NCBI GenBank assembly: GCA_945607565.1
Contig: CALYZD010000010.1
Coordinates: 1-46,062, forward strand
Origin: an uncultured Bacteroidales bacterium
Lineage (GTDB): Bacteria > Bacteroidota > Bacteroidia > Bacteroidales > Marinilabiliaceae
Length of the DNA stretch: 46,062 nucleotides
Reading direction: 5' to 3'
Positions 21,396 through 46,062 of this stretch are shown piece by piece. A program made the translations under genes and the position numbers. Below the pieces are notes generated by a model. It had not been told where the DNA came from, searched no databases, and saw nothing but the letters and a program-made list of their open reading frames with translations. How positions within the stretch are numbered: the first letter of the stretch is position 1; the number at the start of each line of letters is the position of its first letter.

Positions 21396-22559
21396 TCAGC
21401 ACGCCGACGCCAGCGCCAGCGCCACGGCGTAGCCCAGGTAGGTGCCCACAGCGTAGCCTATCAGCCCCACGGCAATGCCCGGCCCGATGACCGCCCGGTT
21501 GTTGAGCGCGCCGGCCATCACCGGCACGAACGGCGGGCTGCAGATGAGCGATATGGAGCTGACGAGCGTCGTGTCGGTGTCGACACGCATCAGGGCGTTG
21601 AGGACGATGTGGATGGCCAGGGCGCCGAGCGTCACGAACAGGATGTAGTAGAAGAACGTCAGGTCGATGTTGCGGAACATCGACACGCTGACCTGCGACG
21701 ACACGGCCACGCTGAAGACGAGGATGAAATAGATGCCCATCTCGAACGTCCGCTCGATGCGGCGGATGCGCCTGACGAACGAGGCGCCGATGGCCAGCAC
21801 CGACATGCTCAGGATGAACACCGCCAGAAACGAGCCCGACGGCGCCAGCATGGCTATCGCGCCCCCGACGGCCACCACCGCCAGGGCGCACCCGAGGCCT
21901 CGTAACAGATTGCCCAGATTGCCGCGCGAAAAGAGGCCGAGGAAGAGCTCGTCGTCGTGCGAGGCCGTCTCGACGTCGGGCGCCGGCTGTCCGTCGGAGG
22001 CGGCCCGGGCGTCGAAGCGCGGCAGGACGAGCCCGGCCACCTGCCGGCCGCAGAAGATGAGCACCAGCAGATAGATGGCGCCCACCAGAATGCTGTAGGT
22101 GTGCACCATCAGGTAGGTCTCGTTGTCGATGCCGAGCACCAGCTTGAGCGACGCCAGATTGGCCGTGCCGCCGGTGTAGAGCCCCATCAGCAGGCCGCCC
22201 ATGCCGGCGTACTGCTCGCCGTGGCCCGTGCCGAACAGGAAGAAGCCGGCCACCACGGCAATCACCGTGGCCGCCACGCCCGCAAGCAGCGACTTGGCGA
22301 AGTTGGGCGCCAGCCGCAGCCACGCCTTGACGTCGGACGAGAAGAGCATGAGCGGAATGGCTACGGGGATGGCGATGTTGGCAATCGTCTCCTGCGCCTT
22401 GGCCGTCGCCGCGTCCTGCGGCAGCAGGCCCGACAGGCCCAGCAGGCAGCCAAGGGCGTAGGCCAGCACCACACTACCTATCTTATTGAGTATCTTGCTT
22501 TTATAGGTCAGCCACAGCACCAGCAGCGGCGACAGGAAACAAATCGGATATAAAATCAT
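21396..22559 (-). CDS. DUF819 family integral membrane protein
   Basis: A 387-aa inner-membrane protein with around ten hydrophobic segments. It carries the family's diagnostic IPLMLFSSDVKAWLRLAP stretch and the YTGGTANLASLK motif that follows GMGGLLMGL. DUF819 (YjcL-like) proteins resemble secondary transporters; the substrate is unknown. The C-terminal half has SVSMFRNIDLTFFYY and a GALNNRAVIGPGIAVGL re-entrant-like stretch. It follows nspC by 49 nt on the same strand and may be co-transcribed, but no functional link is established. Confidence 0.9.
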   Translation of the reverse strand: MILYPICFLSPLLVLWLTYKSKILNKIGSVVLAYALGCLLGLSGLLPQDAATAKAQETIANIAIPVAIPLMLFSSDVKAWLRLAPNFAKSLLAGVAATVIAVVAGFFLFGTGHGEQYAGMGGLLMGLYTGGTANLASLKLVLGIDNETYLMVHTYSILVGAIYLLVLIFCGRQVAGLVLPRFDARAASDGQPAPDVETASHDDELFLGLFSRGNLGNLLRGLGCALAVVAVGGAIAMLAPSGSFLAVFILSMSVLAIGASFVRRIRRIERTFEMGIYFILVFSVAVSSQVSVSMFRNIDLTFFYYILFVTLGALAIHIVLNALMRVDTDTTLVSSISLICSPPFVPVMAGALNNRAVIGPGIAVGLIGYAVGTYLGYAVALALASAC

Positions 22560-22608
22560 CGGGTCAGGAAATTTGTGAAAGATTCATTCTGATGCAAAGC
22601 GTTGTCGT

Positions 22609-23754
22609 TCAGCCCAGTCGGCTTCGATAGTCGTCGTAGCCGAAAGTGCGGACCACGCGCAGGCCCTTGGCATCGTCCCAGATGGCGAGCGACGGGTGCG
22701 TCAGTCCGTTGAACATTGTGGTCTTGACCACCGTGTAGTGAATCATGTCTTCGAACACAATCTTGTCGCCTACGCGGAGCGGCCTGTCGAACGACCAGCT
22801 GCCGATGTAATCGCCAGACAGACAGCTGTTGCCGCCGATGCGATAGGTCGGCAGCCCGTCGACCGGGTCGTGATGCGCGCCTGCGATGCGCGGCTTGTAG
22901 GGCATTTCGAGGCAGTCGGGCATGTGGGCCGCGAACGACACGTTGACGATGGCCGTGCTGATGCCGCCGTTCTCGACCACATCTTCCACATCCGACACCA
23001 GAACGCCCGTCTGCCAGGTGAATGCGCTGCCGGGTTCGAGGATGACGCGGACGCCCCAGCGGCGCGCGAAGTCGCGTATCAGCCTGACGAGCAGGTCGGT
23101 GTCGTAGCCCTTGCGCGTCATCAGGTGGCCGCCGCCCATGTTGACCCAGCGCACCTTGGGCAGCCAGCGCGCAAACCGCTGTTCGACGGCGCCAAGCGTC
23201 TTCTGCAGGTCGGTCGAGTCGGATTCGCAGAGGGCGTGGAAGTGGAGGCCTTCGATGTCGGCGGGCAGCTCGGCCGGCATGTTGGCGGCCGTGATGCCCA
23301 TCCGCGAGCCGGGCGCGCAGGGGTTGTAGAGCGCGGTCGCCACGTCGCTCGACTCGGGGTTGATGCGCAGGCCGAGCGAGATGGCGTGGCCGGCCGCACG
23401 GGCGCGCGGCGCGAATCGCTCGTACTGCGAAAGCGAATTGAACGTTATGTGGCTGCTGCATTGGCAGATGGCGTCGAACTCGGCGTCGGTGTAGGCCGGC
23501 GAATAGGTGTGGGCCGGCTGCCCCAGTTCGTGCCGGGCAAGCATGGCTTCGGAGAGCGAACTGGCAGTGGCACAGTCGAATCCGCATTCGCGAAAGATGC
23601 TGAACGACGGCCAGAAGGCGAACGCCTTGAAGGCCATTATGATTTCGGCGCCCGACTCGCGGCGGACGCGGTCGATGAGGCGCAGATTGTTGCGGAGCAA
23701 CTGTTCGTCGAGCACGTAGCAGGGCGACGGAACTTTTGAAATGTCTATTGCCAT
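22609..23754 (-). CDS. nspC: Carboxynorspermidine decarboxylase
   Basis: PLP enzyme of the alternative spermidine pathway, which decarboxylates carboxyspermidine/carboxynorspermidine. It has the alanine-racemase-like barrel of group IV decarboxylases, with the Schiff-base lysine in AFKAF (Lys43). Other visible features are ECGFDCATASSLSEA, GLHFHALCESDS, a GGGHLMT glycine loop for PLP phosphate, and LEPGSAF. The ATG at 23754 gives 381 aa and the usual MAIDISKVPSPCYVLDE start. A longer frame extends upstream, but it crosses the -7 promoter element and lacks homology. The partner carboxyspermidine dehydrogenase is not in the window. Confidence 0.94.
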   Translation of the reverse strand: MAIDISKVPSPCYVLDEQLLRNNLRLIDRVRRESGAEIIMAFKAFAFWPSFSIFRECGFDCATASSLSEAMLARHELGQPAHTYSPAYTDAEFDAICQCSSHITFNSLSQYERFAPRARAAGHAISLGLRINPESSDVATALYNPCAPGSRMGITAANMPAELPADIEGLHFHALCESDSTDLQKTLGAVEQRFARWLPKVRWVNMGGGHLMTRKGYDTDLLVRLIRDFARRWGVRVILEPGSAFTWQTGVLVSDVEDVVENGGISTAIVNVSFAAHMPDCLEMPYKPRIAGAHHDPVDGLPTYRIGGNSCLSGDYIGSWSFDRPLRVGDKIVFEDMIHYTVVKTTMFNGLTHPSLAIWDDAKGLRVVRTFGYDDYRSRLG

Positions 23755-23779
23755 TGGGCTTGTTTCGATTTTCAGCCCG

Positions 23780-23787
23780 CAAATGTA
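23780..23787 (-). promoter_or_regulatory. -7 element (TACATTTG) of nspC
   Basis: Exact TAnnTTTG match on the minus strand, 26 nt before the nspC ATG. It may also drive the downstream same-strand genes as far as the 14.6 kb end. No -33 TTTG is seen. Confidence 0.5.
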
Positions 23788-23973
23788 GCAAAAAATCAGC
23801 ATCGGCACCCGGCGGCGGCCCAAGGCGTCGGCAGGCGTAGCCAAGCATCGGTTCTGCGCAAAAAAGTGACGCGGGCCGGCAACCTTAACGCGCCCGAAGC
23901 AGTAAAAATGCTGCCGACGTTCCGCATTTCGGGACGGCCGGCGCAAGAAAAGCGTAACCAATCAACATCGACC

Positions 23974-25188: not shown

Positions 25189-27588
25189 ATGAAACGGAAG
25201 AACACTTCAAAGGACTCCGGCAACAGCCAGAACTATCAGATAGACGTCACCATGCTGCTGCGCAGCGCGTTGCGACATTGGTACTGGTTCGTCATCTCGC
25301 CGCTGATCGTCATGAGCGGCGCATTCGTTTACAACAGGTATGCCGAGCGCGTCTACAGCTGCACGTCCACCATCCTGCTCAAGGGCCAGGAATACACGTC
25401 GCAGATGCAGATGGAGCTGACCGAGGGCTTCGGCCTGTCGCAAGCCATGACCAACATCAACAACCAGCTCTACATCTACAGTTCGCCCAAAATAGTGAGC
25501 AATGCCCTGGCAGGCCTCGACTTCACCGTATCGTATCGCAACGTCGGCACGCTCGACGGCCGCAGCATCTATGGCCGGCAGGTGCCGATCGACGTCGAGA
25601 TGGACACCACGCAGGCGCAACTGACCTTCGCCACGTTCCGCCTCGAAACGGAGAGCGCCCAGGGCGGCAGCATCCGCGTGCAGTCGGAGGCGGCCTGGCG
25701 ATACGACTTTGCGGCCAGGGCCTATGCCGACCACATGCCCATAACCGACCTCGACACCACGGTGCAGTTCCGCTTCGGCGTCCCCGTCAGGTGCCCGATG
25801 TTCGCATTCACCGTCTACCCCAAGCCGGGCCGGACCACGGCCGAGCTCCGGGAGCGGACCATCGACTTCTGGTTCAACACGCCCGAACAGCTTGTGGCAC
25901 AGTGGCGCGGGCGGCTCTCGCTGTCGCTGACCGACAAGGAGGGAACGGTGGCCTACATCTCGGCCGTGGGGCACAATCAGGAGCAGCTCGTCAAATTCCT
26001 GAGCGCCGTCAACCGCGCCATAGAGCAATACAACATCGACCAGAAAAATCTGAAAGCATCGCGCACGCTGCAGTTCATCGAGCTGCAGATGAATCAGATA
26101 AACGACTCGCTGATAGAGGCGCAGAACCGGTTGAACGAGTTCAGGAAACGCAACAATCTGGCCGGCCGGACGCTGTATGCCGACAACGTCCAGAAACGAT
26201 ATTTTGAAAACGAGGACGAAATCAAGAAGCTGACCCTGCTGCGCAACTACTACGAGCACATCCGCAGCAACACCGGCAACAACGCCGACCTCGAAAACTA
26301 CTTCGCGCTGAGCGACCCCGACATCGTCAGCCCAATAATCAGCCAGCAGATACAGCAGCTCATCACCGTCCAGCAGCAGCTGCGCTCGGTGGCCGACCAG
26401 ACCGAGCAGAACCCCTACCGTCAGCAGCTCTATCAGGACGAGCATCTGCTGCGAAGCAACCTCGAAACCATTCTGAGCCAGGCCATCAGCCGCATCAACC
26501 TCCGGATTGAAGAGTGCAGGCAGATTGCCGCCGAACTCAACTCGCTCATCAGCAAGCTGCCCGATGTGGAGTCGGAATATTCGGACCTTGAGCGCGACTT
26601 CAAGATACTGGACGCCACCTACACCTTCCTGCTCCAGAAGCAGTCCGAAAACCAGATAGCCAAGGCCTCGAACACCAGCGACTGCGAAGTGCTCGAAGAG
26701 CCGCACGGAGTCAGCGTCGTGGCGCCGCAGTCGGAGCGCATCTACAGCACCGCCCTGGCGCTGTCGCTGGCACTGCCGGCCGCCATCCTCTTTCTGCTCG
26801 AATATTTCAACAGCAAGATACGCACGGCCGACGAACTGATGAAGACCGTGCCCGACGTGCCGCTGCTGGCCGTGGTGCCGCAGTCGTCGAGCACCGAAGA
26901 GCTCATCTGCATCAAAGAGCCGCAGCGCGTCACAAGCGAAGCCTTCAGAGGCCTGAGGGTCAAGCTGCAATTCATGAACAGCACGACCGACGCCGCCTGC
27001 AAGACCATCATGTTTTCGAGCTGCAACTCGGGCGAGGGCAAGACCTACTGCGCCGCCAACACCGCCAGCGTCTTCGCCCTGACCGGCAAGCGGACGCTGA
27101 TAATGAACTTCGACCTGCGATGCCCGCGCATGGAGGCGTCCATCGGCATCAGCCCCACATGCGGCATTGCCGACTATCTGGCCGACCTAACCGACGTGGA
27201 GAGCATCATCGTGCCGTCGGGCGTCAACCCCAACCTGTTCGTGGCGCCGGCAGGCTCCATACCGCCCAACCCGGCCGAACTGATCGCATCCGTAAGAACC
27301 AAGGAATTAATGGATTATGCTCACAAGAACTTCGACATCATCATTGTCGACACGGCACCCGTGGGGCAGGTGTCCGACTGCCGGATGCTCGAAACGTTCT
27401 GCGACTCGTTCGTCTTCGTGACCTATTGCGGACGAACGGAATATTCTCACATCCAGCACATTATCGAATCGCTGAAGCAGGAGAACGTCAAGTCGCTGGG
27501 GCTGCTGTTCAACGGCCAGCCGGCTTCGGAGCGGAGCTACGGCAACTATGGCTACTACAATCGCGACAGCAAATATCTGAAAAGCTGA
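25189..27588 (+). CDS. Wzc-like polysaccharide co-polymerase / tyrosine autokinase
   Basis: A 799-aa inner-membrane protein that usually controls chain length and export of capsule or exopolysaccharide. Transmembrane segment 1 lies at about residues 30-52, followed by a Wzz/PCP periplasmic domain with coiled coil (about 55-510) and transmembrane segment 2 (about 517-540). The cytoplasmic BY-kinase has Walker A (SSCNSGEGKT, about 609-618), Walker A' reading MNFDLRCPR and Walker B IIIVDTAPVG. PAGSIPPNPAEL is the usual Wzc segment. The C-terminal cluster SYGNYGYYNRDSKY supplies tyrosines for autophosphorylation. The first Asp of Walker A' is Asn here, which may affect catalysis. No export channel (Wza), priming transferase or flippase is nearby, which is unusual. 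Confidence 0.92.
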   Translation: MKRKNTSKDSGNSQNYQIDVTMLLRSALRHWYWFVISPLIVMSGAFVYNRYAERVYSCTSTILLKGQEYTSQMQMELTEGFGLSQAMTNINNQLYIYSSPKIVSNALAGLDFTVSYRNVGTLDGRSIYGRQVPIDVEMDTTQAQLTFATFRLETESAQGGSIRVQSEAAWRYDFAARAYADHMPITDLDTTVQFRFGVPVRCPMFAFTVYPKPGRTTAELRERTIDFWFNTPEQLVAQWRGRLSLSLTDKEGTVAYISAVGHNQEQLVKFLSAVNRAIEQYNIDQKNLKASRTLQFIELQMNQINDSLIEAQNRLNEFRKRNNLAGRTLYADNVQKRYFENEDEIKKLTLLRNYYEHIRSNTGNNADLENYFALSDPDIVSPIISQQIQQLITVQQQLRSVADQTEQNPYRQQLYQDEHLLRSNLETILSQAISRINLRIEECRQIAAELNSLISKLPDVESEYSDLERDFKILDATYTFLLQKQSENQIAKASNTSDCEVLEEPHGVSVVAPQSERIYSTALALSLALPAAILFLLEYFNSKIRTADELMKTVPDVPLLAVVPQSSSTEELICIKEPQRVTSEAFRGLRVKLQFMNSTTDAACKTIMFSSCNSGEGKTYCAANTASVFALTGKRTLIMNFDLRCPRMEASIGISPTCGIADYLADLTDVESIIVPSGVNPNLFVAPAGSIPPNPAELIASVRTKELMDYAHKNFDIIIVDTAPVGQVSDCRMLETFCDSFVFVTYCGRTEYSHIQHIIESLKQENVKSLGLLFNGQPASERSYGNYGYYNRDSKYLKS

Positions 27589-37013: not shown

Positions 37014-38648
37014 TCATCGGGTCACCACGAATTCTTCGACGTCGAGCCAGCCGCCGTCGTTGATGAACTTGGGCCGCGTGGCGAACATGCCCACTTTGGC
37101 GCCGATCCACTGCCCGGGCTGGGCCGTGAATTCGCGTCCGAGGTCGGCGAAGGTCTTGCCGTCGAAGCTGTAGGAGAATCGGCACAGAGCCTGCGTGCCC
37201 GACCTGCTGACGCGCACGCGCAGCCACACGTCCTGGTTTTTCTGCACCAGCACGGGTTCGGAGCTGACCACCTCTTCGCGGTGCTGCTTGGCCTTGACGC
37301 ACGTGTTCTGCGACAGCAGGATGCCGCGCGGCGTCTGCTCCATGAAGAGGCCGGCGTAGTCCATGCCCATCACCACCAGCCCGGCGCGCTCGCCCTCTAT
37401 CTTGGCCGACGGCGCGAAGCGCAGGCGGGCCGTGGCGGCGAAGTCGGGCGCGGGGAACTTCTGGAGCAGCAGGTTGGGCAGGTCCCAGAGGTTGGCGTAG
37501 TTTTCGGGCAGAGGCACGGTGAAGAGGCGCAGGCGCGTGTGTGCGGCGTCGGCGAAATACCAGAGCGGGTTGGCGTTGGCGTGCCACTGCCACTGCAGTC
37601 CCAGGCGGTTGGAGGTGAAATAGTCGGTCTCCACGGGGTTGGCCTTGGGCTGCCGGGGCAGCGAGGGCTTGACGGCGGTGGTCACGGGCTCGCCGCAGCC
37701 GTCGCCGTCGGCATCGTTGCCAATCACGGGCCAGCCGTCGGCCCAGCGGAGCGGGTTGAGGTGGATGATGCGGCCGTAGGCGTCGACGTCCTGGAAGTGG
37801 ATGAACCAGTGCTCCTTGCCGTCGGGCGTGTCGACCCACGCGCCCTGATGGGGCCCGTTGATGTCGGTCATTCCCTGGGCCATCACCTTACGGTGCTCGT
37901 AGGGTCCGTAGATGTCTTTGGAGCGCAGTGCCAGCTGCCAGCCGGTGGAGACGCCGCCGGCCGGGCAGAGGATGTAGTAGTAGCCGTCGCGCTTGTAGAG
38001 CTTGGTGCCCTCGACGGTCTCGTTGCCCTCGTGGCCGTCGAACACGATGCGGCTCTGGCCGATGGTGCGGGTGCCGTCGGGCGTCATCTCGATGATGCCG
38101 AGGATGCTCTTGAGGCCGGCGCGGCTGCCGGCGTATCCGTGCGACAGATAGGCGCGTCCGTCCTCGTCCCAGAAGGGGCAGGTGTCGATGATGCCGCGTG
38201 CCGGGAGGACGAGCACGGGGTCGTCCCAGCGGCCGAGCACGTCTTTGGTCTTGACCATGAAGATGCCGTTGTCGGGGTCGCCCCAGTAGATGTAGAACTC
38301 GCCGTTGTGGTGGCGGATGGCCGGCGCCCAGATGCCGTTGCCATGGCTCGGGGCGGCAAAGAGCTCGGCCGGCACGAGGCGCTCCACGGCATAGTTGACC
38401 AGCGTCCAGTTGACGAGGTCTTTGGAGTGGAGGATGGGCAGGCCCGGGATGCAGTTGAAGCTCGACGCCGTCATATAATAGTCGTCGCCCACGCGGCAGA
38501 CGTCGGGGTCCGAATAGTCGGCGTAGATGATCGGGTTGCGGAACTTGGTGCCCAGGTCGGGCTGCCACACTTCCGACACATAGTTCTGTGCCACGGCTGC
38601 GCACGGGGCGGCCATGGCAAGCATCAGCATTGATTTCAGTCTGTTCAT
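37014..38648 (-). CDS. Family 43 glycoside hydrolase with C-terminal beta-sandwich
   Basis: Exported (signal peptide to about residue 20, AAPCAAVAQ) five-bladed propeller enzyme acting on arabinose- or xylose-containing side chains. YADYSDPDV carries the catalytic base Asp47. IDTCPFWDEDGRAYL holds the pKa-modulating Asp, and ETVEGTKLYKRDGYYY the acid Glu. A second domain from about residue 335 to the end (YFTSNRLGLQWQW, LVVMGMDYAGLF, VGMFATRP) is the concanavalin-like sandwich seen in GH43 subfamilies such as 12. Length 544 aa. It follows the GH28 gene by 48 nt, so the two are likely co-transcribed. Exact substrate is unknown; arabinan side chains of pectin fit the neighbours. Confidence 0.93.
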   Translation of the reverse strand: MNRLKSMLMLAMAAPCAAVAQNYVSEVWQPDLGTKFRNPIIYADYSDPDVCRVGDDYYMTASSFNCIPGLPILHSKDLVNWTLVNYAVERLVPAELFAAPSHGNGIWAPAIRHHNGEFYIYWGDPDNGIFMVKTKDVLGRWDDPVLVLPARGIIDTCPFWDEDGRAYLSHGYAGSRAGLKSILGIIEMTPDGTRTIGQSRIVFDGHEGNETVEGTKLYKRDGYYYILCPAGGVSTGWQLALRSKDIYGPYEHRKVMAQGMTDINGPHQGAWVDTPDGKEHWFIHFQDVDAYGRIIHLNPLRWADGWPVIGNDADGDGCGEPVTTAVKPSLPRQPKANPVETDYFTSNRLGLQWQWHANANPLWYFADAAHTRLRLFTVPLPENYANLWDLPNLLLQKFPAPDFAATARLRFAPSAKIEGERAGLVVMGMDYAGLFMEQTPRGILLSQNTCVKAKQHREEVVSSEPVLVQKNQDVWLRVRVSRSGTQALCRFSYSFDGKTFADLGREFTAQPGQWIGAKVGMFATRPKFINDGGWLDVEEFVVTR

Positions 38649-38696
38649 GTCTGCTCGGAATTATTGGTGTTTTGGAAACGGTTCTGATGGTGTGTC

Positions 38697-40118
38697 CTAT
38701 TGCGCGTCAGGCGTCTGCTGCTGCCCGTTGAGACGATAGTTGCTGAAGCTGATGCCCTTGGCGCCGGTGATGCTGTTGCCCTGCTTCACGCCGTCGAACG
38801 AGCAGTCGACGAGCGAGATGTCCTCGACGTTGACGGTCTGCGCGTCCTTGAGGCCCACGATGTAGACGCCGTATTTGCTGCTCTGGCTCTCGACGTTCTG
38901 CATCAGCACGTTGCGCACCGTGGGCGGGAAGTCGCGGCGGCAGGCCTCGCGCGGCTCGTAGTCGAGGTTGATTTTGAGGACGGCCTCGCGGCACTGCCCC
39001 ACCTTGATGTTGCGCACGAAGATGTTCTCTATCAGTCCGCCGCGGCAGGGGTTGGTCTTGATGCGGATGACGCGTTCGAGCTCGGGGCTGTCCATGGTGC
39101 AGTTCTCGACCCACAGGTTGCGGTATCCGCCCGTGATTTCGCTGCCCACCACCACGCCGCCGTGGCCGTTCTTCATGTGGCAGTTGCGCACCACGATGTT
39201 CTCGCTCGGCAGGTTCCAGCGGCGGCCGTCGTTGTTGCGGCCGCTCTTGATGGCGATGCAGTCGTCACCGGTATCGAAAAAGCAGTTCTCAATCAGCACG
39301 TTGCGCGACGATTCGGGGTCGCAGCCGTCGCTGTTGGGGCCGTGGCTGATGATGGTTACGTTGCTGACGGTCAGCTGGTTGACCATGACCGGGTGGATAA
39401 CCCAGAAAGGCGAGTTGCGCAGCGTGACGCCGTCGATGAGCACGCGCTCACACTTGTAGAGGTTGATGAGCTGCGGGCGCAGTGCGTCGGCCACGGCCAT
39501 CACGCGCTCTTCGACGGGGACGTCGTTCTGCTCGCACTCGGTGAGGCGGACGCGGCCGTGCCCCGGGGCGCGCTGCGAGAGCATGCCGGGTTTCCAGCCG
39601 TAGCGCGTGGAGCCGCACTGATGCCACCAGGTCTCCTTGGTGGCCTGTCCGTCGATGGTGCCCTGGCCGGTGATGGCGATGTCGTTCTGTCCGTAGGCGT
39701 AGATGAGCGGGTGCAGATTGTAGCAGTCGATGCCCTCCCAGCGCGTCAGCACCACGGGTAAATAATGTTCGCGGACGGTGGAAAATTTAAGCACGGCGTC
39801 CTTTTCGACCACAAGATTGACCCCCGACTTGAGCGTGATGGGCCCCGTGAGCCACTCGCCGGCGGGCACCAGCACGCGGCCGCCGCCGTTGCACGAGGCG
39901 GCGTCGATGGCCTTGTTGATGGCGTCCATGTTGGTCAGGGCGTCGGCCGAGGTGGAGGCGCCGTAGTCGGCGATGCGATAGTCGGCGTCGGCGATGGCCG
40001 GCCGGGCGATGGAGGCGGCAAGTTCCTGGCCGCGAGCCCAGACGTCGGCGGCCGGTTGTGCCTGCGCGGCGGCTGTCAGCGCCGCAAGCATGGCAAGGCA
40101 GAGATGTCTTGTTGTCAT
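38697..40118 (-). CDS. Family 28 glycoside hydrolase (polygalacturonase-like)
   Basis: Exported right-handed beta-helix enzyme that cleaves galacturonan or rhamnogalacturonan. Signal peptide at residues 1-20. Catalytic residues are in GPNSDGCDPE (Asp264; Ser replaces the Thr of the usual NTD), DTGDDCIAIKSG (Asp285/Asp286), GHGGVVVGSE (His319) and RVIRIKT (Arg-Ile-Lys). The N-terminal GGGRVLVPAGEWLTGPI is the standard helix start. Length 473 aa. It is the first gene of the GH28-GH43-CE12 run. No SusC/SusD or hybrid two-component regulator is in the window, so uptake must be encoded elsewhere. Confidence 0.95.
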   Translation of the reverse strand: MTTRHLCLAMLAALTAAAQAQPAADVWARGQELAASIARPAIADADYRIADYGASTSADALTNMDAINKAIDAASCNGGGRVLVPAGEWLTGPITLKSGVNLVVEKDAVLKFSTVREHYLPVVLTRWEGIDCYNLHPLIYAYGQNDIAITGQGTIDGQATKETWWHQCGSTRYGWKPGMLSQRAPGHGRVRLTECEQNDVPVEERVMAVADALRPQLINLYKCERVLIDGVTLRNSPFWVIHPVMVNQLTVSNVTIISHGPNSDGCDPESSRNVLIENCFFDTGDDCIAIKSGRNNDGRRWNLPSENIVVRNCHMKNGHGGVVVGSEITGGYRNLWVENCTMDSPELERVIRIKTNPCRGGLIENIFVRNIKVGQCREAVLKINLDYEPREACRRDFPPTVRNVLMQNVESQSSKYGVYIVGLKDAQTVNVEDISLVDCSFDGVKQGNSITGAKGISFSNYRLNGQQQTPDAQ

Positions 40119-40407: not shown

Positions 40408-41250
40408 ATGGAATATCAGAAAGTAACGATAAGGCTGACGCCGGCGTGCGCGACGGCCTCGGAAGTGATGATGGCGCAGATGGGCGATCTGGGCTACGAG
40501 AGTTTTGTGGAGACGCCTGACGGCTTCGAAGCCTACATCCCCACCCCGGCCTTCGACCCCGAAGCCCTCGCCGGCCTCGACCCGATGGTCGAAGGCGTCG
40601 GCTACCGGTGGCAGGCCGAGACCATTGCCGACCAGAACTGGAACAAGGTGTGGGAGCAGAACTTCTTCGAGCCCATAGTGATTGGCGGCAAATGTCAGAT
40701 ACGCAGCACATTCCACAAGCCGATAGCCGACACCGAATACGAAATAATCATCAACCCGCAGATGGCCTTCGGCACCGGCCACCACCAGACCACCGAACTG
40801 ATGATAACCTTCCTGGCCGACATGGACCTGCACGGCCAGAGCGTGCTCGACATGGGCTGCGGCACGGGCATCCTCGGCATCTTCGCGTCGATGCGCGGCG
40901 CGGCGCACGTCCACGGCATCGACATCGACACGTGGTGCCGCGACAATTCGCTCGACAACATCGCGCTCAACTCCATCGGCAACATGACCGTGGCCGTGGG
41001 CGACGCATCGGCCATCGACCCGCAGGCGCGCTACGACACCATCCTCGCCAACATCAACCGCAACATACTGCTGGCCGACATGCCGCGCTACGCTGCCGCA
41101 CTGGCACCGGGCGGCACGCTGCTGCTGAGCGGATTCTATGCCGACGACGTCCCGATGCTACGCGACGCCGCACGGCAGCTGGGCCTCGAGCTCGCCGACA
41201 GCCGGCAGAAAGACAGCTGGACCGCCCTGAAACTGACCGCACGGCACTGA
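40408..41250 (+). CDS. prmA: Ribosomal protein L11 methyltransferase
   Basis: Methylates ribosomal protein L11 using SAM. The N-terminal substrate-recognition domain (about residues 1-60) is followed by a linker with NWNKVWEQNFFEP. The methyltransferase domain has FGTGHHQTT, VLDMGCGTGILGI (motif I), GIDIDTWC (motif II) and ILANINRNIL (the NPP-like catalytic loop). Length 280 aa. ATG at 40408 gives the standard MEYQKVTIRLTP start. The next gene starts 94 nt later on the same strand with no visible terminator between them. Confidence 0.95.
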   Translation: MEYQKVTIRLTPACATASEVMMAQMGDLGYESFVETPDGFEAYIPTPAFDPEALAGLDPMVEGVGYRWQAETIADQNWNKVWEQNFFEPIVIGGKCQIRSTFHKPIADTEYEIIINPQMAFGTGHHQTTELMITFLADMDLHGQSVLDMGCGTGILGIFASMRGAAHVHGIDIDTWCRDNSLDNIALNSIGNMTVAVGDASAIDPQARYDTILANINRNILLADMPRYAAALAPGGTLLLSGFYADDVPMLRDAARQLGLELADSRQKDSWTALKLTARH

Positions 41251-41344: not shown

Positions 41345-44300
41345 ATGACAAAGCGCATCAGCAAGACAGCACTAATGGCAGTGGCGGTGATGGCCGCCAC
41401 GGCCGCCGCACTGACACTCCACAGCCGCACGGCCGCACAGAGCCAGATTGTCAGCTTCAGCAGCGACCACAACGAGTTCATGGAGCAGATGGCCAAGCTC
41501 TACGAGTTCACCACCGACAAGAAAAAGGCCAAGGAATTCGTGATGCGGATAGACGAATACCTGATGCGCGTGGGCGACAACCAGCGCCTGCAACACATCG
41601 ACGACTGCAACCGCCTCGCACGCCGCAAGGCACGCGCCTACCCCGACTACAACAACTACTTTGAGACCTGCATGGCCTTCGAAGCCAAGGGATTCTACGG
41701 CACGGCCAACCACGCCGTGTGGCACAACGTGCTGACCGCCAAGCTCGACAACCCCAAGACGCAGCTCCGCCACATCAACGACTACCTGAAGGCCTCGGCC
41801 GACCTCGTGTGCGAGAACATGCTCAACCGCACCGCATCGAGCCGATGGTTCGCGCGCGGATGCAGCCTGCAGTTCATCCAGAACAACGACCACCTCGTGG
41901 TCGAAGTGCCGACGACGACGCTGGTGTGCTGCGCCCAGAACGACAGCATCGAAGTGTTCGAGACCGACGGCACCTTCGACATGGACACACACCGATGGAC
42001 CGGCCGCAAAGGCCTCGTCACATGGCACCGCTCCGGATTCTCGCGCGAGGAGTGCCACGCCGACTTCGGCCGCTACGGCATCGACATGACCAAGACCGGC
42101 TTCTCGGCCGACTCGGTGACGTTCATCAACACCAAATACTTCGCCGAAAAGCTGCGCGGCACGCTCGAATGCAAGGTCATGGTCATCCGCACGCCCGAAG
42201 GCGCGCAGTACCCCAAGTTCCGCACCTCGGGCGAGCGGCGCGAAATCAAAGACCTCTTCGACAACATCGACTACTCGGGCGGATTCTCGCAGATAGGCTC
42301 CAAATTCCGCGGCAGCGGCGACCCCGACGAACCGGCCGTGGTCAGCATCTATCGCAACGACACGCTCTTCGTCGAAGCCATGTCGACCAGCTTCACCCTG
42401 CAGTCCAACCGCATCGAAAGCGGCAACGCCTCCATCGCCATCCACCTCGACTCGGGCCGCATCACGCACCCCGGCCTGCGCTTCAGGTATCACGACGGCC
42501 CCAAGGAAATGACGCTGCTGCGAAGCAACGAAGGCATCGAAAAAAGCCCCTATTTCGACACCTACCATCAGGTCAGCCTCGACGTGGAACGAATACGCTG
42601 GCGGGTGCGCGACCCCGAGATGATGCTGCAGGCCGTCGAAGGCGCGGCACAGAGCTACTCGCTGTTCGAGTCGCTCAACTACTACCGCGAAGAAGACTAC
42701 CACGAGTTGCAGGGCATGGAGATGACGCATCCGCTGCAGAACATCAAGGACTTCTACCACTACGCCGGGCGGATGCCGTTCACGGTGGCCGAGTATGCCG
42801 AGTTCCGACGCCTGCCGGCCAACGAGCTGAGGCAGATGATAATCAACCTGTCGTTCGGCGGATTTGTGACCTACGACACCAACACCGACGTTGTCACGCC
42901 CACGCAGCGCCTGTTCGACTACCTGCTGGCACGCGTGGGCAAGAAAGACTACGACGTCATCCGCTTCAACTCCATCACCGACGGCCGCACGCCCAACGCC
43001 GTGCTCGACCTGCGCAACTACGACATGGTGCTCAACGGCGTCAAAGGCATTGCCATCTCCGACCATCAGAACGTGGCACTCTACCCCGACTCGGCCTCGG
43101 GCTGGCAGGTCATCCTCAAGCGCAACCGCGATTTCCGCTACGACGGCAAGCTCGACGCCGGCATGATGGAGCTCTACGGCAACAACTTCTACTTCTCGTA
43201 CGAGAACTTCGAAATCGAGCTCGACAAGATTGACTCGCTCAGGCTCAAGATGGTGTCCGAACACCTCAACCGCTACGGGCAGCAGCAGCTCGTCTATGTG
43301 CAGAACACGCTCTCGGACCTGACGGGCAACCTCAAGATTGACAAGCCCGACAACAAATCGGGCATCAAAGACTATCCCGAATATCCGATTCTGACATCGA
43401 CCAAAGAGTCGTATGTCTACTACGACAAACCCTCAATCCAGCACGGCAAATACAAGCGCGACCGTTTCTACTTTGCCGTCGATCCGTTCGAAATAACCAA
43501 CATCAACCGCTTGACCAAGCAGAACACCGAGTTTGCCGGCACGCTGACGTCCAACATCTTCCCGCCCATAGAGCAGAAGTTAGTGGTGCGGCCCGACTAT
43601 TCGCTCGGCTTTGTGCAGGAAGCCCCGGCCGAGGGCTATCCGATCTACAACAACCGCGCCACCTACCACAACATAGTGGACCTGAGCAATCGCGGCCTGC
43701 GCGGCGACGGCATCCTCGAATACGTGGCGTCGAGCTCGGCCAGCAACGACTTCCTGTTCCTGCCCGACGAGGCCCGCGGACGCACCTACGACTTCACCGT
43801 GTCGTCGGCCGGCGAGCGCACCACGGTGCCCTTCCCCGACGTCAGCCTCGGACGCAAGCAGGCCGTGGTGGTCGACGGCGAGACGCGCACCGGACAGACG
43901 CAGGTGGTCTTCAGGCCGCTCGACGAATACATGTCGGTCGAAAACACGTTCGGCAAGTTCGGAATGTTCGCCGCACGGAAGAACCCCAGCGAATACGAGA
44001 CCCGCTTCAGCGGCCGACTGCTGGTGACGCCCAACGGCATGAAGGGATTCGGAATAACCGACATGCCCTCGGCCTCGCTCGAGTCGGAGCTGATGGACTT
44101 CACCGACCACACCATCGTGGCCGACACGTCGTTCTTCTGCACGCTCGACCGCTCCACGGGCGAAATCAACAGCGGACAGACGCGCCGCAACATCATCGAG
44201 AGCCAGAAGCAGCAGAAGCACTACAACAGCATCGGCAACCGCTCGGGCATGACGGCCTCCAACTATTCGAACGAGACGCTGCGGCACTTCGCCATAGTCG

Positions 44301-46062
44301 ACACCATGTGCCGCGAGATTGCCAAGGTGCGCGACACGGTGGAGATGAAATGCCTCTACTCGGTCATCGACTTCGACAAGCGCGAGGGATACTTCGCCTA
44401 CAAGCGCGGCAACGGCGAGTGGAACAGCAACACCATCAAATTCAAGACACTCCTGAAGTCGTACACGTGGGACATGGACCGCAACATACAGGTGATGGGA
44501 CAGCTGGGCTCCAAGGGCAACCGATTCGTGTCCACGCGCGAACGCGGCGACTCGCTGGCCTTCTACGTGCCCTACGCCGAGCACGACGTGGACCTCGACA
44601 TCCTCTCGTGCCGCGAGGTCAAGAAGATCCGGACGGCCGACGCCACGCTCAACCTCAACAGCAAGGGCATCGTCATCATACACAAGAACGCCGACATCGA
44701 CGAAGTGGACAGCGTCAAGGTCGAGGTCAGCACCAAGACGTCGTATCACAGCTTCTACAACTCCAAAATCAAGATCGAGGGCGCCAAGAAATATCACGGC
44801 TTCGGCAACTACGACTTCGTCAACAAGGAGGGCGAGAAATACACCATCTTCATGAGCAGCATCGTGACCGACAAGGAGGCGCGGACCACGGCGCGCGGCA
44901 ACATCTCGGAGACGGCCGCCTTCCGCTTCGACCGCTACTTCAACTACAAGGGCGACGCCATGATTCTGGCCGGACGCCAGCTGCTCGAGTTCGACGGCGC
45001 CGCGCAGATGATTCACGACGCCGCACACGGCCCGCACACGTTCGTCCGCTTCACGTCGGTCATCGACCCCAAGCAGGTGATGATCCCAATCGGCGACCGC
45101 ATCGAGAACTGGGACCACGACCAGATTCACCGCAACTTCTTCATCCGCAAGGACTCGACGCACGTCTACAGCTCGTTCATCGAAAGCCGCGTCGACTACA
45201 GCGACGTGCCGATGCTCGAGGGGCGCGGCTTCCTGTTCCACAACGACATCTTCGACCGCTTCGACATCTCCACCGAGTCCAAGCGCAACAAGCCCGACAC
45301 CGTGGGCACGCGCCTGAGCTTCGAGCCCGACAAGGACATCATCACCGGCTTCGGACGCATCGACATGGGCGTCGACTTCGGCAAGTCGCGGCCCGTGGAG
45401 ATACGCTCGGCGGGCGACATCACCGACCATCGGCCCACCAACACCATCAGCCTCAACACCACCACGGGCATCGACTTCTTCTTCAGCACCGAGCTGGCCA
45501 CGCGCATCTATCGCAAGGTGCTCGACTCGAAGGCCGAGAAGTGCGACACCACATCGTTCAGATACGAGCTGCGGATGGCCGAGCTCTACGACACCACCGC
45601 CATCAAGACCATGCTTGCCGACCGCAGCAAGCCGCTCGTGCCCGTCAAGAACAGCGAGGAGCTGGTGCTGCCCGAGACGGGGCCGCTCTTCACGTTCGAC
45701 AACATCGAATGGATATGGCACACGCCCAAGAAGGCCTACATTGCCGACACCACCGTCAACCTGATGATGATGCGCGGACGCAATGTCAACCGCAAGGTGC
45801 ACATCAAGTGCGAGCTCGTCAGCCGCAAGGTGGGCAGCTCGCTGACGATGCTCGTCGAGAGCGGACAGGACTGGTTCTTCTTCGCATTCCGCAACGCCAA
45901 CATGCAGGTGCTCACCTCCGACAAGGAGTTCAACCAGGCGCTCATGGCCATCGACCCCGCCGACCGCCGCAACAAGAGCCGCGGCATACAGTACACCCTG
46001 GCGCCCGACAGCAAGCGCAAGACATTCCTGCGCCAGTTCGGCATACAGACCGCGCAGGCCGA
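41345..46062 (+). CDS. Very large exported protein of unknown function (partial, runs off window)
   Basis: An open frame of 1,572 codons with no stop, starting at an ATG at 41345 and still open at the end. It begins with a signal peptide (LMAVAVMAATAAALTLHSR, cleavage likely near AAQSQ) and then a helical segment of about 150 residues. A long beta-rich body follows, with repeated short blocks of alternating hydrophobic residues around Gly-Asn or Tyr-Gly, for example YDGKLDAGMMELYGNNFYF, SGRLLVTPNGMKGFG and GDAMILAGRQLLEFDG. These recall solenoid or OstA/LptA-like strands but I cannot assign a family. Few cysteines, no transmembrane helix after the signal. No homolog is recognised. Two long frames on the opposite strand here are shadows of its GC-rich codons. 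Confidence 0.85.
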   Translation, partial: MTKRISKTALMAVAVMAATAAALTLHSRTAAQSQIVSFSSDHNEFMEQMAKLYEFTTDKKKAKEFVMRIDEYLMRVGDNQRLQHIDDCNRLARRKARAYPDYNNYFETCMAFEAKGFYGTANHAVWHNVLTAKLDNPKTQLRHINDYLKASADLVCENMLNRTASSRWFARGCSLQFIQNNDHLVVEVPTTTLVCCAQNDSIEVFETDGTFDMDTHRWTGRKGLVTWHRSGFSREECHADFGRYGIDMTKTGFSADSVTFINTKYFAEKLRGTLECKVMVIRTPEGAQYPKFRTSGERREIKDLFDNIDYSGGFSQIGSKFRGSGDPDEPAVVSIYRNDTLFVEAMSTSFTLQSNRIESGNASIAIHLDSGRITHPGLRFRYHDGPKEMTLLRSNEGIEKSPYFDTYHQVSLDVERIRWRVRDPEMMLQAVEGAAQSYSLFESLNYYREEDYHELQGMEMTHPLQNIKDFYHYAGRMPFTVAEYAEFRRLPANELRQMIINLSFGGFVTYDTNTDVVTPTQRLFDYLLARVGKKDYDVIRFNSITDGRTPNAVLDLRNYDMVLNGVKGIAISDHQNVALYPDSASGWQVILKRNRDFRYDGKLDAGMMELYGNNFYFSYENFEIELDKIDSLRLKMVSEHLNRYGQQQLVYVQNTLSDLTGNLKIDKPDNKSGIKDYPEYPILTSTKESYVYYDKPSIQHGKYKRDRFYFAVDPFEITNINRLTKQNTEFAGTLTSNIFPPIEQKLVVRPDYSLGFVQEAPAEGYPIYNNRATYHNIVDLSNRGLRGDGILEYVASSSASNDFLFLPDEARGRTYDFTVSSAGERTTVPFPDVSLGRKQAVVVDGETRTGQTQVVFRPLDEYMSVENTFGKFGMFAARKNPSEYETRFSGRLLVTPNGMKGFGITDMPSASLESELMDFTDHTIVADTSFFCTLDRSTGEINSGQTRRNIIESQKQQKHYNSIGNRSGMTASNYSNETLRHFAIVDTMCREIAKVRDTVEMKCLYSVIDFDKREGYFAYKRGNGEWNSNTIKFKTLLKSYTWDMDRNIQVMGQLGSKGNRFVSTRERGDSLAFYVPYAEHDVDLDILSCREVKKIRTADATLNLNSKGIVIIHKNADIDEVDSVKVEVSTKTSYHSFYNSKIKIEGAKKYHGFGNYDFVNKEGEKYTIFMSSIVTDKEARTTARGNISETAAFRFDRYFNYKGDAMILAGRQLLEFDGAAQMIHDAAHGPHTFVRFTSVIDPKQVMIPIGDRIENWDHDQIHRNFFIRKDSTHVYSSFIESRVDYSDVPMLEGRGFLFHNDIFDRFDISTESKRNKPDTVGTRLSFEPDKDIITGFGRIDMGVDFGKSRPVEIRSAGDITDHRPTNTISLNTTTGIDFFFSTELATRIYRKVLDSKAEKCDTTSFRYELRMAELYDTTAIKTMLADRSKPLVPVKNSEELVLPETGPLFTFDNIEWIWHTPKKAYIADTTVNLMMMRGRNVNRKVHIKCELVSRKVGSSLTMLVESGQDWFFFAFRNANMQVLTSDKEFNQALMAIDPADRRNKSRGIQYTLAPDSKRKTFLRQFGIQTAQA

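Follow-up and report, generated by a model that had tools for sequence, protein, structure and literature searches.

We describe a giant exported protein, encoded at the end of a 46,062-nucleotide contig of an uncultured Bacteroidales bacterium (the window, that is, the whole stretch of DNA analysed here), which is a member of an unnamed family and, judged from predicted structures, a variant of the Lpt-jellyroll kind, with an Lpt-type beta-jellyroll predicted in at least two local stretches of its chain. The presence of an exported protein of more than 1,500 residues in most of the genomes sampled from the order, without a family name in the sequence libraries used, represents a large gap in envelope biology. 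Tentatively, the giant may be a carrier of an envelope lipid, glycolipid or acyl chain that is built of tandem Lpt-type jellyrolls, or a scaffold for envelope assembly. If its groove carries lipid, the Bacteroidota would have an extra route for hydrophobic envelope components, and the Lpt fold would have been reused within one giant chain.

The giant gene, its relatives and its neighbourhood

Window and contig share the same end (46,062 bp), so that the stop codon of the giant gene cannot be read (Table 1). The length of the open frame alone is little proof of a gene, since long chance ORFs occur in the window, with antisense ORFs of 630, 740 and 826 amino acids listed in the same DNA. The RSCU of the giant gene agrees closely with that of eight pooled neighbour ORFs (r 0.957, versus -0.004 for frame +1 and 0.109 for the antisense), its GC3 being 0.90, and homologues are open and full-length in most relatives having one, with a few split or cut by contig ends (e.g. 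in G010, G045 and G053). The alignment is co-linear, with identities of ~40% to nearer relatives and 22-31% to farther ones. Neighbour-like codon usage and co-linear homologues thus identify the frame as a real gene, in agreement with an earlier note, made from the sequence alone, that had described an unbroken giant gene with neighbour-like codons behind prmA. In one locus (L063, G053:C24), the homologue is found in two ORFs of 1037 and 399 amino acids; this genome is 70% complete, and either a true split or an assembly error may be responsible. Among 80 relatives, the homologue extends beyond the last window residue by a median of 14 residues, usually as an acidic tail (the acidic fraction in the last 25 residues has a median of 0.32, versus 0.13 overall). 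The part missing from the window therefore appears to be a short, usually acidic tail and the stop codon, and the folded protein appears essentially complete.

Table 1. Features of the giant protein and its upstream neighbour in the window
Feature	Residues	Position	Strand	Basis or remark
prmA, 94 nt upstream of the giant gene		40408..41250	+	NCBIfam PRK00517, E 1.7e-98
Giant exported protein, ORF of 1572 codons		41345..46060	+	Cut by contig end
Signal peptide region	1-32	41345..41440	+	Hydropathy test; position of cleavage site approximate
Six-helix N-terminal domain	42-157	41468..41815	+	AF2/DSSP helices at model 15-130
Predicted Lpt-type beta-jellyroll, first part	294-447	42224..42685	+	VIA-align to Lpt chains
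Predicted winged-helix (MarR-type) insert in jellyroll	448-534	42686..42946	+	VIA-align to OhrR
Predicted jellyroll resumption past winged helix	535-594	42947..43126	+	LptD rows spanning the insert
Loop IDxPxNKSG	665-673	43337..43363	+	Nearly invariant across the aligned family
Internal repeat, copy 1	763-821	43631..43807	+	hhalign versus copy 2
Second predicted Lpt-type jellyroll stretch	793-1120	43721..44704	+	VIA-align to LptD/LptC/LptA
Internal repeat, copy 2	870-935	43952..44149	+	hhalign versus copy 1
Helical insert, in a minority of relatives	947-1001	44183..44347	+	Helices in model
C-terminal helical insert	1382-1428	45488..45628	+	DSSP of second model

A hydrophobic N-terminal segment was detected by the hydropathy test in all 80 scorable proteins of 81 (the start of the L084 protein is cut by the contig), none of which contains a later membrane-like segment by the same test. 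A lipobox-like motif was found in 0 of 80 proteins, and an AxA-like motif lies near the cleavage zone in 64 of 80. The signal peptide proposed earlier is thereby supported, and the giant is most likely a soluble exported protein that resides in the periplasm.

With the window protein as query, the giant was matched in 53 of 61 genomes (the own genome and relatives), essentially once per genome; G028, a genome with 6% contamination, has two copies on separate contigs. In samples of 198 genomes from the order and 296 from the phylum, a profile of 72 rows gave matches in 140 and 11 genomes, respectively, the own genome being counted in both samples. A scan of genome contigs with the single sequence found no relative, and a scan with the alignment identified 184 of 215 candidate stretches as relatives; the best 80 of these 184 were used as named loci, including two pieces of one genome (L101 and L117). 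Among the named relatives are Carboxylicivirga, Marinilabilia, Breznakibacter and Labilibaculum, of which the last two belong to the Marinilabiliales, together with MAGs that carry the labels Bacteroidales, Flavobacteriales and Chitinophaga pinensis.

In 68 of the 80 loci, the giant gene directly follows an ORF of the prmA cluster, and the three genes upstream include tpiA-like (47 loci), DoxX-like (41), DUF1599-like (30), folP-like (26) and cdaA-like (26) genes. The neighbour ORFs are mechanical calls, and their names, including that of prmA in the relatives, are assigned from the look of their sequences, the HMM match being that of the prmA in the window. The commonest neighbour clusters of the 80 loci are mostly housekeeping genes. 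Ten genomes outside the order have a match, and in the nine that were used for the analysis of neighbours (G284 was left out), prmA is adjacent in five loci (L185, L186, L189, L190 and L192), and the contig of L184 begins just before the giant gene. The distribution of the family, together with adjacency to prmA also outside the order, suggests that the gene has long been inherited vertically and was lost in some lineages, in line with the conserved lineage protein that the note had expected. The next gene downstream is plsY-like (glycerol-3-phosphate acyltransferase) in seven of the 80 loci (L119, L125, L131, L132, L134, L135 and L139) and in L188, with PF02660 confirmed in L132 and L188, the two tested; this neighbour may be taken as a weak hint of a role connected with lipids.

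On the other side of prmA in the window, a GH43 gene (PF04616) is located beside a GH28 gene (PF00295) at 37014-40118 on the minus strand, forming a small plant-polysaccharide unit that adjoins prmA. Two further ORFs of the window, at 22559-23848 (minus strand, 430 amino acids) and 25189-27585 (plus strand, 799 amino acids), have no Pfam match at 1e-6, and their status as genes is putative.

Predicted architecture and fold

Searches of Pfam and NCBIfam returned no family match for the window protein, and Pfam gave no convincing family among 23 homologues; in particular, no Lpt family (Pfam OstA_2, LptC, LptD_2 and others) was detected in the window protein or these homologues, and the TamB domain PF04357 is not among the Pfam matches of the giant at E up to 1. 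The best match in the window protein, CheZ (E 0.16 and 0.22), was rejected as noise, as were scattered matches in single homologues (E 0.015-0.092), an integrin chimera matched by the whole protein in a PDB sequence search (E 0.036) and a xylosidase matched by the profiles of the first and second halves in their shared overlap region (E 0.048 and 0.11). No A2M Pfam domain was found at E up to 1, and neither alpha-2-macroglobulin nor a known adhesin, the examples of well-described families given in the earlier note, appears among the Pfam and NCBIfam matches. The absence of a recognised family thus holds for the sequence libraries searched. No title among the papers listed describes the family, which does not prove its absence from print.

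The chain was modelled with AlphaFold2 in two overlapping parts, residues 28-960 (72 sequences; mean pLDDT 90.0, pTM 0.70) and residues 680-1572 (71 sequences; mean pLDDT 91.1, pTM 0.68). Nine loci with at least 88% identity to a kept one were removed before the structure alignments, L101 also from that of the second half, and alignment A1 was made without L043, L053 and L063, which are partial or split. The models contain 98 strands that account for 45% of the mature chain and, by AF2/DSSP, display the helical N-terminus and beta-rich body that had been read from the sequence. The recurrent strand blocks reported with them reduce to one clear repeat (Table 1; hhalign probability 88, E 3.5e-6), other internal repeats being weak. 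The six-helix domain has no significant match to PDB sequences in a profile search (best E 0.047), and the profile of the C-terminal part returned nothing significant from PDB. The first of the two helical inserts has an occupancy of 0.26 over the 72 rows (residues 951-1005).

Conservation peaks at residues 301-830, with a mean majority-residue fraction of 0.59-0.62. In the loop IDxPxNKSG, the I, D, N, K and S positions are invariant and G is conserved to at least 90% in 34 sequences, while over the 72 rows D, N, K and S are invariant and I and G reach at least 90%. H408, S443, D535, D537, N670, K671 and S672, all invariant in the 34 sequences, could form a site if the giant were an enzyme or a binding protein for envelope or extracellular glycans. 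We regard such a function as distinctly improbable: besides these residues, it can draw on the xylosidase profile matches and on the GH28 and GH43 genes upstream in the window, but both profile matches are insignificant, no enzyme family is matched, and the conserved neighbour is prmA, with no glycoside hydrolase recognised among the neighbour clusters read.

For fold comparison, Foldseek candidates were realigned on the predicted models by VIA-align. The first half aligns to Lpt chains with Z 6.8-10.0, apart from one low LptD row at 4.0, on a scale where, as the tool itself warns, Z 7-8 is common without a true relationship. The highest value belongs to LptD (Z 10.0, rmsd 6.5, 227 residues aligned), and the first jellyroll is matched by the LptDE entry 8h1r_A (Z 9.6, rmsd 3.0, 132 aligned), LptA 2r1a_C (Z 9.1, rmsd 3.5, 120 aligned) and 6mjp_C, taken as the LptC chain of an LptBFGC entry (Z 8.7, rmsd 3.2, 122 aligned); the best unrelated beta rows are those of OspA, with Z 6.2. 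Three LptD rows cover model residues 274-567 yet align only 154-162 residues, which is consistent with a jellyroll on both sides of an insert. The second half aligns to Lpt chains mostly with Z 5.9-9.4; the LptD rows mostly have Z 6.3-9.4, two of them being low at about 3. Its top row is LptD (Z 9.4, but with an rmsd of 20.7 over 303 residues), and closer fits were obtained with LptD 9rps_A (Z 8.7, rmsd 3.5 over 142), 6mit_C of an LptBFGC entry (Z 8.0, rmsd 2.4 over 125), LptC (Z 7.3, rmsd 2.5 over 120) and LptA 2r1a_C (Z 6.6, rmsd 2.9 over 118), unrelated rows of OspA and apolipoprotein B starting at Z 5.6.

LptD is also the top Foldseek match of both halves, and a local match of the second half to LptC 4b54 has a probability of 0.97 and a TM of 0.64 over the target. 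However, the local LptA and LptC matches have E >0.05, the whole-chain superpositions on LptD are poor (rmsd 27-45, TM <=0.17), and the unrelated DDB1 (first half) and teneurin (second half) also reach E <0.001. We therefore limit the claim to the local jellyroll, predicted in at least two stretches. Structures of AsmA/TamB are not among the fold rows listed for either half, and their absence there excludes nothing.

A comparison of the giant with a profile of 14 Bacteroidota OstA_2 proteins was not significant (best hhalign E 0.004, probability 9%), and neither were control pairs expected to be related, LptC or LptD-N versus the OstA alignment; the failure of the controls means that this comparison has little power. 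One row of the OstA_2 alignment (L179, 388 amino acids) probably starts too late, the LptC control consists of three good rows (L163 being a 48-residue ORF), and the LptD control is a single sequence. Support for the earlier suggestion of a lipid- or glycan-bridging solenoid, to be sought near OstA/LptA, thus comes from the predicted fold only.

The OspA rows, which represent free-standing beta-sheets, would also suit a structural scaffold or tether, in which a jellyroll rod connects the outer membrane, the cell wall or the secretion machinery without carrying lipid; an envelope scaffold was the alternative role named in the earlier note. The size of the giant fits such a role, as do the conserved winged helix and the helical domain at the N-terminus, both of which are suitable for protein contacts. 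We nevertheless consider it unlikely, as the Lpt rows outrank OspA in both halves, and no peptidoglycan-binding Pfam domain, lipobox-like motif or later membrane-like segment was found in the giant.

The insert in the first jellyroll, a feature absent from the earlier note, is predicted to adopt a MarR-type winged-helix fold, which is more weakly visible in sequence. In the model (residues 421-507), it aligns to OhrR 2pex_A with Z 8.3 and rmsd 2.2 over 68 residues, and the fold likewise resembles that of YusO (1s3j); apoptosome entries match the same stretch with Z 7. By sequence, HTH families were detected in a few of 29 members, the best being PF01325 in one member (E 3.2e-5), with no HTH family match for the segment of the window protein itself, and the winged-helix profile matched the PDB entry 1q1h with E 0.012. 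Unlike in the MarR-type proteins, this winged helix is located within an exported chain, which is unusual. The signal peptide of the chain argues against cytoplasmic DNA binding, and DNA binding is not expected from the net charge of residues 474-534, which ranges from -3 to 8 over 81 proteins with a median of only +1.

Known envelope systems and the candidate roles of the giant

The giant resembles LptA, LptC and LptD-N of the E. coli type in its predicted jellyroll stretches (VIA-align) and in being exported or periplasmic. It differs from LptA in being about ten times longer, and from all three in combining several such stretches per chain with winged-helix and helical domains, in the absence of a Pfam Lpt match and in its location with prmA. 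Bacteroidota OstA_2 proteins (PF13100) are exported and of a multi-jellyroll type; the giant is likewise exported, and the motif RNDTLFVEA resembles NDTLYLHADT, whereas OstA_2 proteins are mostly 500-600 amino acids long and encoded in the own genome by a separate gene. TamB/AsmA-like bridge proteins, for which a beta-rich groove has been proposed, are envelope proteins of a size close to that of the giant (~1500 amino acids).

The own genome (G000) encodes OstA_2/LptA (the LptA-like gene G000:C155), LptD_2, LptF/G and LptC outside the giant gene, and TamB as a separate gene (G000:C9). The giant is therefore additional to the canonical Lpt and TamB systems, and a replacement of either of them is ruled out. 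In Flavobacterium johnsoniae, TamL and TamB are reported to be essential (PMC12045153). As a component of the Lpt system proper, the giant would give this lineage a further LptA-like bridge for LPS. The predicted fold agrees with such a function, but the separate OstA_2/LptA, LptC, LptF/G and LptD in the same genome, and the retention of OstA_2 and LptD in genomes without the giant (e.g. G038, G057 and G059), make it very improbable.

The carrier or assembly scaffold proposed above draws support from the export signal, the confident models, the leading position of the Lpt rows in the fold comparison, and conservation together with synteny. Canonical Lpt and TamB, which leave no missing transport step, and the housekeeping neighbours count against this tentative reading. 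The jellyroll stretches would provide an extended hydrophobic groove in which an amphiphile of the envelope is bound, be it a lipid, a glycolipid or an acyl chain; the groove would then pass the amphiphile along, or the giant would scaffold the assembly of the envelope, alongside the canonical Lpt/TamB routes. As the giant is exported, its helical N-terminal domain and winged helix would be places where partner proteins dock and not DNA binders. It is rather improbable that the family represents a third class of trans-envelope lipid bridge beside Lpt and AsmA/TamB, with one tandem-jellyroll chain lying whole in the periplasm, its winged helix and helical head docking partners in the inner and outer membranes, and a lipid characteristic of Bacteroidota being moved along it.

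An accessory role in type IX secretion or gliding machinery was considered from the distribution of GldM, which is encoded in 183 of the 198 genomes, comprising 138 of the 140 with the giant versus 45 of the 58 without it, in a hand comparison uncorrected for phylogeny. The 45 genomes with GldM that lack the giant rule out a core part of the T9SS and also speak against an accessory, which we judge improbable, no T9SS neighbour being recognised among the commonest neighbour clusters of the locus. Pfam and NCBIfam include models of the Por secretion tail; none was found by Pfam in the 23 homologues, the C-terminus of the window protein being cut.

At the loci L065 and L091, both from Bacteroidales MAGs, the giant homologue is directly followed by an ORF of >2,100 amino acids (12074-18745 in L065) that extends to the end of the sequence analysed there, and the ORF of L065 contains Ig_7 (CHU_C-associated) domains.
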